From positions 1-26,944 of IMG/VR virus record IMGVR_UViG_3300005613_000346: DNA of 26,944 bases. One strand, written 5' to 3'. The DNA is from a virus. Every line of letters begins with the position of its first letter. Positions within the stretch are counted from its first letter, which is position 1. The position numbers were made by a program, and so were the translations under genes. Positions 11,920 through 13,202 of the stretch are shown here, one piece after another. The notes under the pieces are model-generated. The model ran no database searches, was not told the DNA's origin, and saw only the letters and a list, made by a program, of their open reading frames with translations.

Positions 11920-11948
11920 AACTTATCATACTAGAGAAATTTTGTCAA
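11920..11948 (-). promoter_or_regulatory. Promoter of the middle (DNA-metabolism) operon
   Basis: Minus-strand TTGACA (11948-11943), 17-base spacer, TAAGTT (11925-11920) with an extended -10 TGA (11928-11926). The -35 box starts two bases after the late terminator stem, so the two operons are packed back to back. The start site would be near 11913, about 120 bases before the first ATG. Confidence 0.65.
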
Positions 11949-11949
11949 T

Positions 11950-11977
11950 AAAAACTCCCTATCACTAGAGAGTTTTT
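11950..11977 (-). terminator. Late-operon intrinsic terminator with GNRA loop
   Basis: On the minus strand a 12-bp stem (AAAAACTCTCTA with TAGGGAGTTTTT, one G-U wobble) closes a GTGA tetraloop and ends in TTTTTATT. On the plus strand the same pair is a C-A mismatch, so it is built for minus transcripts. It ends the structural/lysis operon. Confidence 0.88.
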
Positions 11978-11988
11978 AAAAAGTATTT

Positions 11989-12180
11989 TTACCAATTACT
12001 ACATTTACCATTATACTTACCACGATTATCAAAACATTTTTCTTTGCGTTCAGACATAATTTCTGTAGCTTTTTTATCAAATCCACTAACAAATTGTACT
12101 AACCCAAATACTGCAAAAAAGATAATTAAGAAAACTACAATTAAAAATGTCCAAACCTTGAATTTTTGTTCGAGGTTTAT
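11989..12180 (-). CDS. Single-span membrane peptide without a standard start codon
   Basis: An open frame from 12189 to TAA 11989-11991 that clearly reads as protein: basic/polar start (INLEQKFKVW), a transmembrane helix (TFLIVVFLIIFFAVFGLVQF) and a Cys-containing polar end (KCFDNRGKYNGKCSNW). No ATG, GTG or TTG precedes the helix; the best candidate is ATA at 12180 (63 residues). The only ATG lies after the helix. It sits between the peptidase stop (12197) and the terminator, thus last in the lysis cassette, where spanins or antiholins often are. Either a rare start codon or a damaged 5' end; the start is uncertain. Confidence 0.55.
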   Translation of the reverse strand: MNLEQKFKVWTFLIVVFLIIFFAVFGLVQFVSGFDKKATEIMSERKEKCFDNRGKYNGKCSNW

Positions 12181-12196
12181 AAGCGTAAATTAATAA

Positions 12197-12676
12197 TTAT
12201 TTAATATCAAAAGTTGAACCACCTGAGATATTTATTTTATGAATAAGTTTTCTTTTTCCACTTGGTAATGGATATGGGTCTGCAACCAAATAATAATTAC
12301 CAATCTTTTTAATACCAACTACCCAATGAACTAAATTACCATTATAAAGCCTTAATAAACAAGCTGTATTTTTGCCATTTAATGCTGGTAAAATTCTTGC
12401 TTCATCATAACTATAAAATCTCCAAGTAAATTTGAAACCAAGACTATCGTATTCCTCTATTGACCTCCAATAAAGTAATCCAGTACTTGTAAATTTTAAT
12501 TTTTTAGCAAGTTTTTTAGGTGTACAAAATTTACCTGCATAACGATAACGACTATACCAATCTGATAGCATTGAAATATCAGTTATAGTGCATCCATATC
12601 TCCCAATAGTTGCATCTGATTCTCCTATTGTAACATTAGCCCAATCTGGGTCTCGTTGAGACAAAAGTTTCATCAT
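12197..12676 (-). CDS. C39-like cysteine peptidase, probable endolysin
   Basis: A 159-residue papain-fold protein resembling peptidase C39-like (C39_2) proteins. The N-terminus QRDPDWAN is followed by TIGRYGC with Cys29 as nucleophile, VHWVVG with His117, and YLVADPYP with Asp133, the expected Cys-His-Asp triad. The gene is directly downstream of the holin and no other lysin is seen, so cleavage of cell-wall peptide cross-links is the likely job. It has no signal peptide (holin-dependent release) and no separate wall-binding domain. Two ATGs start it (MM) without SD. An alternative is processing of a virion protein. Confidence 0.75.
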   Translation of the reverse strand: MMKLLSQRDPDWANVTIGESDATIGRYGCTITDISMLSDWYSRYRYAGKFCTPKKLAKKLKFTSTGLLYWRSIEEYDSLGFKFTWRFYSYDEARILPALNGKNTACLLRLYNGNLVHWVVGIKKIGNYYLVADPYPLPSGKRKLIHKINISGGSTFDIK

Positions 12677-12710: not shown

Positions 12711-13202
12711 CTATTTTTTTGTTGATTCGTCAACCATTTCTTTAACAGAACCATCTCTGTCTTTTTTATTGTCATGAAGTAAATCTTTATATTTACTATT
12801 AATAAAAGACATAAATTTAGTAGGTAGTTCTAAACCTAATAACGATAGTTTTTCAAAATTACTTATTACTTCAGTAAGTATAAAAAACATTGTTATATAA
12901 TGAACAGCCCAACCAAATATTTTTTCATCAGCAACAGCTAATAAATAAATAGTGCCAATAGCTAAACCATATCTAATTAATTTCATTGACCCTTTTCTGC
13001 CTAACGCATAAGATGTAAATTTTTTATATTTAATAGCGAGCATTACTCCTAAAATAGTATCGATAATGGTTAATAAAAATAAACACATTATTACACTCCA
13101 CCATTCTTCTTTAAAGAAGAAATAGCTAAAAGGAATTGCTAAAAAACATTTTATTGCAGTAGCTTTAATCATTGTTTTAAAATTCTGAATAAACAGTTTC
13201 AC
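12711..13202 (-). CDS. Phage holin (toxin secretion/phage lysis type)
   Basis: A 163-residue membrane protein with about three to four spans (about 13-30, 33-56, 75-92, 98-115) and a charged, Lys/Asp-rich C-terminal tail (140-163). The segment TIIDTILGVMLAIKYKKFTS followed by LGRKG and KLIRYG is the signature of the toxin secretion/phage lysis holin family. It permeabilises the inner membrane at the end of infection. Its first 26 bases overlap the end of the giant ejection protein gene, and the peptidase follows 34 bases later. Confidence 0.9.
   Translation of the reverse strand: MKLFIQNFKTMIKATAIKCFLAIPFSYFFFKEEWWSVIMCLFLLTIIDTILGVMLAIKYKKFTSYALGRKGSMKLIRYGLAIGTIYLLAVADEKIFGWAVHYITMFFILTEVISNFEKLSLLGLELPTKFMSFINSKYKDLLHDNKKDRDGSVKEMVDESTKK

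Follow-up and report, generated by a model that had tools for sequence, protein, structure and literature searches.

An open frame for a small membrane peptide without an ATG, GTG, or TTG start at the end of a viral lysis cassette

In S. aureus, ribosome profiling has placed the starts of infC, ccpN, citZ, and cvfC1 at AUA or AUU codons, which are reported to work at about 10% of the level of AUG in poor medium and, for one of them, at up to 30% in rich medium; the same report predicts extended Shine-Dalgarno motifs for the infC, cvfC1, and ccpN starts (PMC13009471). In C. difficile, the first start of a holin gene is ATT in 4 of 44 strains, with normal starts further down (PMC6200909), and on that account start variation in lysis-type genes has a precedent. 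No natural ACG start from a bacterium or phage was found among the matches listed for openly licensed papers, as far as their titles and the openings of their abstracts go. Reinitiation at non-canonical starts (PMC4648390) was considered as a parallel and set aside, as that account concerns eukaryotic ribosomes.

The open frame described here, which we call the orphan, resembles the S. aureus cases in presenting a near-cognate codon on an intact frame. It differs in that the S. aureus starts were profiled, three of them having predicted extended Shine-Dalgarno motifs, whereas the orphan is known from sequence alone. The window, i.e., the whole stretch of DNA that was analyzed, is a 26,944-base virus record with 29% GC, in which all 33 called genes lie on the minus strand. 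ATG is the start codon of 32 of these 33, although the ORF lister used offers ATG, GTG, and TTG only, so that this count is blind to near-cognate starts. A changed genetic code was rejected as the reason for the missing start, given that TAA (23), TGA (6), and TAG (4) all terminate called genes (n = 33) and that table 11 leaves the long frames open. Scanning the whole window against Rfam at the gathering threshold gave no match, nor did a tRNA scan of the whole window. The features around the orphan are as follows.

12711 to 13202, minus strand: holin, Phage_holin_4_1 (E 2e-14, 54.1 bits against a cut-off of 22.2)
12197 to 12676, minus strand: C39-like cysteine peptidase/amidase of 159 aa (Pfam 14.1 bits, under the cut-off of 24)
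11989 to 12189, minus strand: orphan open frame, 66 sense codons (12189-11992) plus stop (11991-11989)
12184 to 12186, minus strand: ACG near-cognate codon (context score 4.16, the best of the positions scored; 15 of 32 ATG starts equal or lower)
12178 to 12180, minus strand: ATA codon (context score -1.34; 3 of 32 ATG starts equal or lower)
12157 to 12189, minus strand: first 11 orphan codons, atypical (GC3 0.45 against 0.09-0.24 in ten genes)
12153 to 12178, strand not assigned: inverted repeat across early orphan codons (10-base arms, one mismatch, 6-base loop)
11949 to 11978, minus strand: terminator-like stem (13-base arms, 92% complementary, 4-base loop)
11920 to 11948, minus strand: TTGACA-17-TAAGTT, a promoter-like motif that heads the next operon, directly after the terminator-like stem

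The initial annotation had reported this frame, its coordinates, and the absence of ATG, GTG, or TTG at its 5' end, all of which we confirmed: the earliest such codon in frame among the 66 is the ATG at 12057, codon 45, past the membrane segment. Read along the minus strand, the in-frame stop TAA (12192-12190) is followed by TTT 12189, ACG 12186, CTT 12183, ATA 12180, and AAC 12177, the near-cognate codons at this end being the ACG and the ATA. The membrane helix that had been described is borne out by a best 18-residue Kyte-Doolittle mean of 3.13, starting at residue 14. The 35 residues after this segment have a mean of -1.27; the tail is hydrophilic and carries cysteine, as had been noted, but with just two of them (residues 52 and 63) the term "Cys-rich" was generous. 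AlphaFold2, run on the single sequence without an alignment, predicted one helix over residues 2-52 with a mean pLDDT of 79.8. The orphan fills the gap between the peptidase stop and the terminator-like stem, with 10 bases between the peptidase stop and the ACG and another 10 between the orphan stop and the stem. A dedicated terminator scan found none, i.e., it did not pick up this stem.

To score possible starts, we built a profile from the upstream contexts of the 32 ATG starts in the window, which are A/T-rich without a consistent Shine-Dalgarno stretch; the profile is blunt, its score rewarding mainly A/T richness. No Shine-Dalgarno sequence was seen before the orphan frame. Bacteroidota are reported to do without Shine-Dalgarno sequences and to tune initiation through adenines upstream of the start, including the one at -3 (PMC6847099). 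The start contexts of the window appear to recall those of Bacteroidota. ATA 12180 had been put forward as a start candidate, which its weak context does not favor (-1.34, 3 of 32), the ACG at 12186 being better placed (4.16, 15 of 32). The score of the ACG is about that of the median ATG start and is reached by 2.5% of minus-strand positions, and the codon is preceded by T at both -3 and -6, positions at which 24 and 25 of the 33 genes, respectively, have A. TTT 12189 scored 2.59 and CTT 12183 -2.76, and the maximum over the 13 positions scored downstream of these codons was -1.04. As a chance level, of 2177 minus-strand stops, 2.9% have a near-cognate codon in such a context among the next four codons.

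The first 12 orphan codons have a synonymous-codon score of -0.55, the lowest first-12 score of 31 genes being -0.25; the orphan thus scores under all 31 gene starts, as if coding began later. Codons rare in this phage within 12189-12157 are ACG, AAC, CTC, TTC, and AAG, and both codon choice and GC3 become gene-like from about 12156. The start-like context of the ACG and the atypical early codons therefore point in opposite ways. Codons 12189-12157 also span most of the inverted repeat, for whose arms (AAACCTTGAA/TTCGAGGTTT) the pattern tried found no second copy in the window. A stricter hairpin census (at least 4 G-C pairs) missed this repeat; when the census was loosened to at least 3 G-C pairs so as to include it, there were 6 hits at 5 sites, against a mean of 1.8 and a largest count of 6 in 50 shuffles, so the class barely exceeds chance in the window. 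RNA folding of 12100-12215 gave a z of 0.26, i.e., a stability that is not unusual.

How often such a frame arises by chance was estimated from 20,000 dinucleotide-Markov copies of the 208-base interval, with thresholds chosen after the orphan frame had been seen. Frames open for 62 codons or more on the orphan's strand occurred at a rate of 0.020, those with a similarly strong N-terminal helix at 5e-5 (one case), and those with both the helix and a hydrophilic tail not at all (0 cases). With the whole minus strand as the source, the corresponding rates were 0.012, 0, and 0. A laxer test, which accepts a run of 66 or more open codons in whichever of the six frames of the 407-base gap, gave P = 0.13. 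Of 165 non-primary open frames, 60-120 codons long, from the window, L003, L004, L005, and L011, the orphan was the only one to join a strong N-terminal helix to a hydrophilic tail; a frame counts as "non-primary" if more than half of it lies under a longer frame, which for the orphan is on the opposite strand. One opposite-strand frame is open across the orphan stretch. By codon score, the last 34 orphan codons (0.434) are gene-like, the median of 66-codon gene windows being 0.50 and the 99th percentile of 155 off-frame windows 0.38 (largest 0.437). Over its whole length, the orphan scores 0.079, which is lower than 99.8% of 619 gene windows and is exceeded by 17% of the 155 off-frame windows. 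Profile searches with the peptide retrieved no family above its curated cut-off; the match to T4SS_pilin (PF18895), for instance, reached 15.9 bits, under the gathering cut-off of 26.6.

Searches for relatives, which may leave out near copies of the window, retrieved none for the orphan peptide in viral contigs and no match for either the orphan peptide or the peptidase in the phage collection. Relatives of the peptidase were found at eight loci on eight contigs (L012-L019; L002 shares the contig of L012). The DNA of L017 ends within the peptidase, and in the other seven the frames listed over the 900 bases that follow belong to other genes, none of them orphan-like; some of these frames in L015, L016, and L019 are, by eye, small membrane proteins with ATG. 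The orphan had no significant match to the 886 open frames of L012-L019 (best E 0.69, taken as chance), and a phmmer search against 2092 frames from L001-L011 and the window had none beyond the window and its copy L001. The best match outside the window in that set (E 0.055) is a frame antisense to a gene of L003 and was taken as chance. Within the set, L001 is the window itself, and L007, L008, and L010 are on the contigs of L004, L005, and L003; L006 (GC-rich and distant) and L009 (a partial exonuclease match) were part of the phmmer search and stayed outside the cassette comparison. The holin has a relative on one contig (L003, again as L010), at 51% over the matched stretch. No relative was found in genome contigs searched with the 2149-aa protein and with the peptidase, and in the phage collection the 2149-aa protein retrieved one distant match, over a 1107-aa part, to Pelagibacter phage Baldr.

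Three relatives of the 2149-aa protein (L004, L005, and L011) have the genes after the cassette in common with the window and differ in the cassette genes. With like genes on either side of different lysis cassettes, this location is possibly a swap hot spot. A promoter-like TTGACN-17-TAARYT lies at the corresponding place past the lysis cassette in the window, L003 (4559), L005 (16223), and L011 (17178); in L004, no promoter-like motif with the 17 spacing was found at that place. As a looser form of the motif matches in 50 of 100 window shuffles and L005 has a second match elsewhere, what argues for the motif is its shared position.

The nearest likeness to the orphan is a small ORF in L003 (4616-4819 of IMGVR_UViG_3300037504_000578), which has 67 residues, a hydrophobic N-terminus, and a hydrophilic tail with Cys, and which, like the orphan, comes soon after a related holin. 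Unlike the orphan, it has an ATG start and comes after the promoter-like motif rather than before it, and the similarity of the two peptides is not significant (BLASTP E 0.016 as a single comparison, phmmer E 4.3). An N-terminal membrane anchor with a hydrophilic tail in a lysis cassette also recalls Rz-like i-spanins. These have a long periplasmic helical domain of about 100 residues or more, whereas the orphan has just 35 residues past its membrane segment, and its matches to the i-spanin PHROGs 1026 and 2536 (E 0.017 over residues 7-39 and E 0.048 over residues 10-52) are weak and not convincing. Class III holins of the T4 T type share with the orphan a single helix and a tail that is probably outside, but the orphan is much shorter and its cassette already has a Phage_holin_4_1 holin.

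Taken together, we consider it probable that the orphan is a gene or was one until recently. That the orphan is no gene, but a frame left open by chance in untranslated, T-rich 3' DNA, seems unlikely to us: the six-frame P of 0.13 would allow it, as would the overlap of its codon score with off-frame windows, the open frame opposite it, the family matches that stay under their curated cut-offs, the weak PHROG matches, and the other genes that L004, L005, and L011 carry at its place, but its helix with a hydrophilic tail almost never arose in shuffles, is not seen in the 164 other non-primary frames, and is accompanied by gene-like tail codons. The initial annotation had offered three options, namely a rare start, read-through from the peptidase, and a lost start, of which the first and last were carried on as readings. 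The orphan directly follows the peptidase, which speaks for an extension of that protein by read-through or frameshift; simple read-through is nevertheless excluded because the two frames differ and the TAA at 12192-12190 blocks any ribosome that shifted before the peptidase stop. Read-through plus a shift past 12190 would be required, which makes this explanation very improbable.

Two further readings keep the gene and differ in where translation would begin. Initiation at a near-cognate codon, most likely ACG 12186, at a low level and helped by ribosomes finishing the peptidase ten bases upstream, would fit the best context of the positions scored, the ten-base spacing, the intact frame, and the functioning AUA and AUU starts reported in S. 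aureus (PMC13009471); yet the orphan shows no Shine-Dalgarno motif of the kind predicted in that report for infC, cvfC1, and ccpN, its early codons are atypical, and the matches listed held no natural bacterial or phage ACG start, so we regard this as rather unlikely. It is quite doubtful that the lysis-cassette peptide initiates at ACG or another near-cognate codon without a Shine-Dalgarno sequence in such a way that the weak start keeps a membrane-active lysis factor at a low dose. The start might instead lie further down, near 12156, with 12189-12157 as an untranslated leader around the hairpin and the true N-terminus either disturbed or set by an unrecognized codon. Gene-like codon choice and GC3 from that point, the inverted repeat, and the L003 peptide, which would begin about there when aligned by eye on a G-x-DK motif, are consistent with this. 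However, no in-frame ATG, GTG, or TTG occurs at that point, each of the nine positions scored between 12159 and 12123 outscores 3 of the 32 ATG starts at most, the TTG at 12154 lies in another frame, a stretch of eleven codons is short, and the L003 similarity (E 4.3) is not significant; a later start also seems improbable.

The orphan is most likely a real gene with a start that was lost or weakened, and of the specific forms this could take we tentatively favor, at somewhat short of an even chance, a small late gene that has lost its start in this contig. Because ATG begins 32 of the 33 called genes and the contig has a second broken gene, the simplest account is that the start was lost or that a base is in error. 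The late operon would run holin, peptidase, peptide, terminator, and the peptide would have had its original initiation site at 12186, ten bases past the peptidase stop. The ACG now found there may be a natural mutation or one wrong base in the metagenome contig. The product, of about 65 residues, is predicted to begin with a short cytoplasmic segment, to cross the membrane as a single helix, and to have its hydrophilic tail, which carries two cysteines, exported; a start-lost allele would yield little or none of it. Judged by position and shape alone, the peptide is probably a lysis accessory, either a holin partner or an envelope helper. Gene callers limited to ATG, GTG, and TTG would skip the orphan or annotate no more than its last 22 codons. 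Translation of the orphan would mean that small phage lysis proteins with near-cognate starts go unnoticed; without translation, a lysis operon has undergone start loss, which would be unusual yet no proof of new biology.

The second broken gene is an RNase H-like gene (5324-4876, minus strand) that is split over two frames, a break that is either a real lesion or a fault of the contig.

5324 to 5076, minus strand: RNase H-like piece 1 (PF00075, E 0.0044, profile positions 3-52, under the cut-off)
5109 to 4876, minus strand: RNase H-like piece 2 (PF13456, E 3.1e-9, profile positions 63-123, over the cut-off)

Elsewhere on the minus strand, 8677-8321 encodes a 118-aa protein that by eye has an N-terminal helix and two Cys in its tail, with no Pfam match at E 0.01, and 8324-7809 encodes a Fic/DOC-family protein (PF02661, E 3.7e-12).
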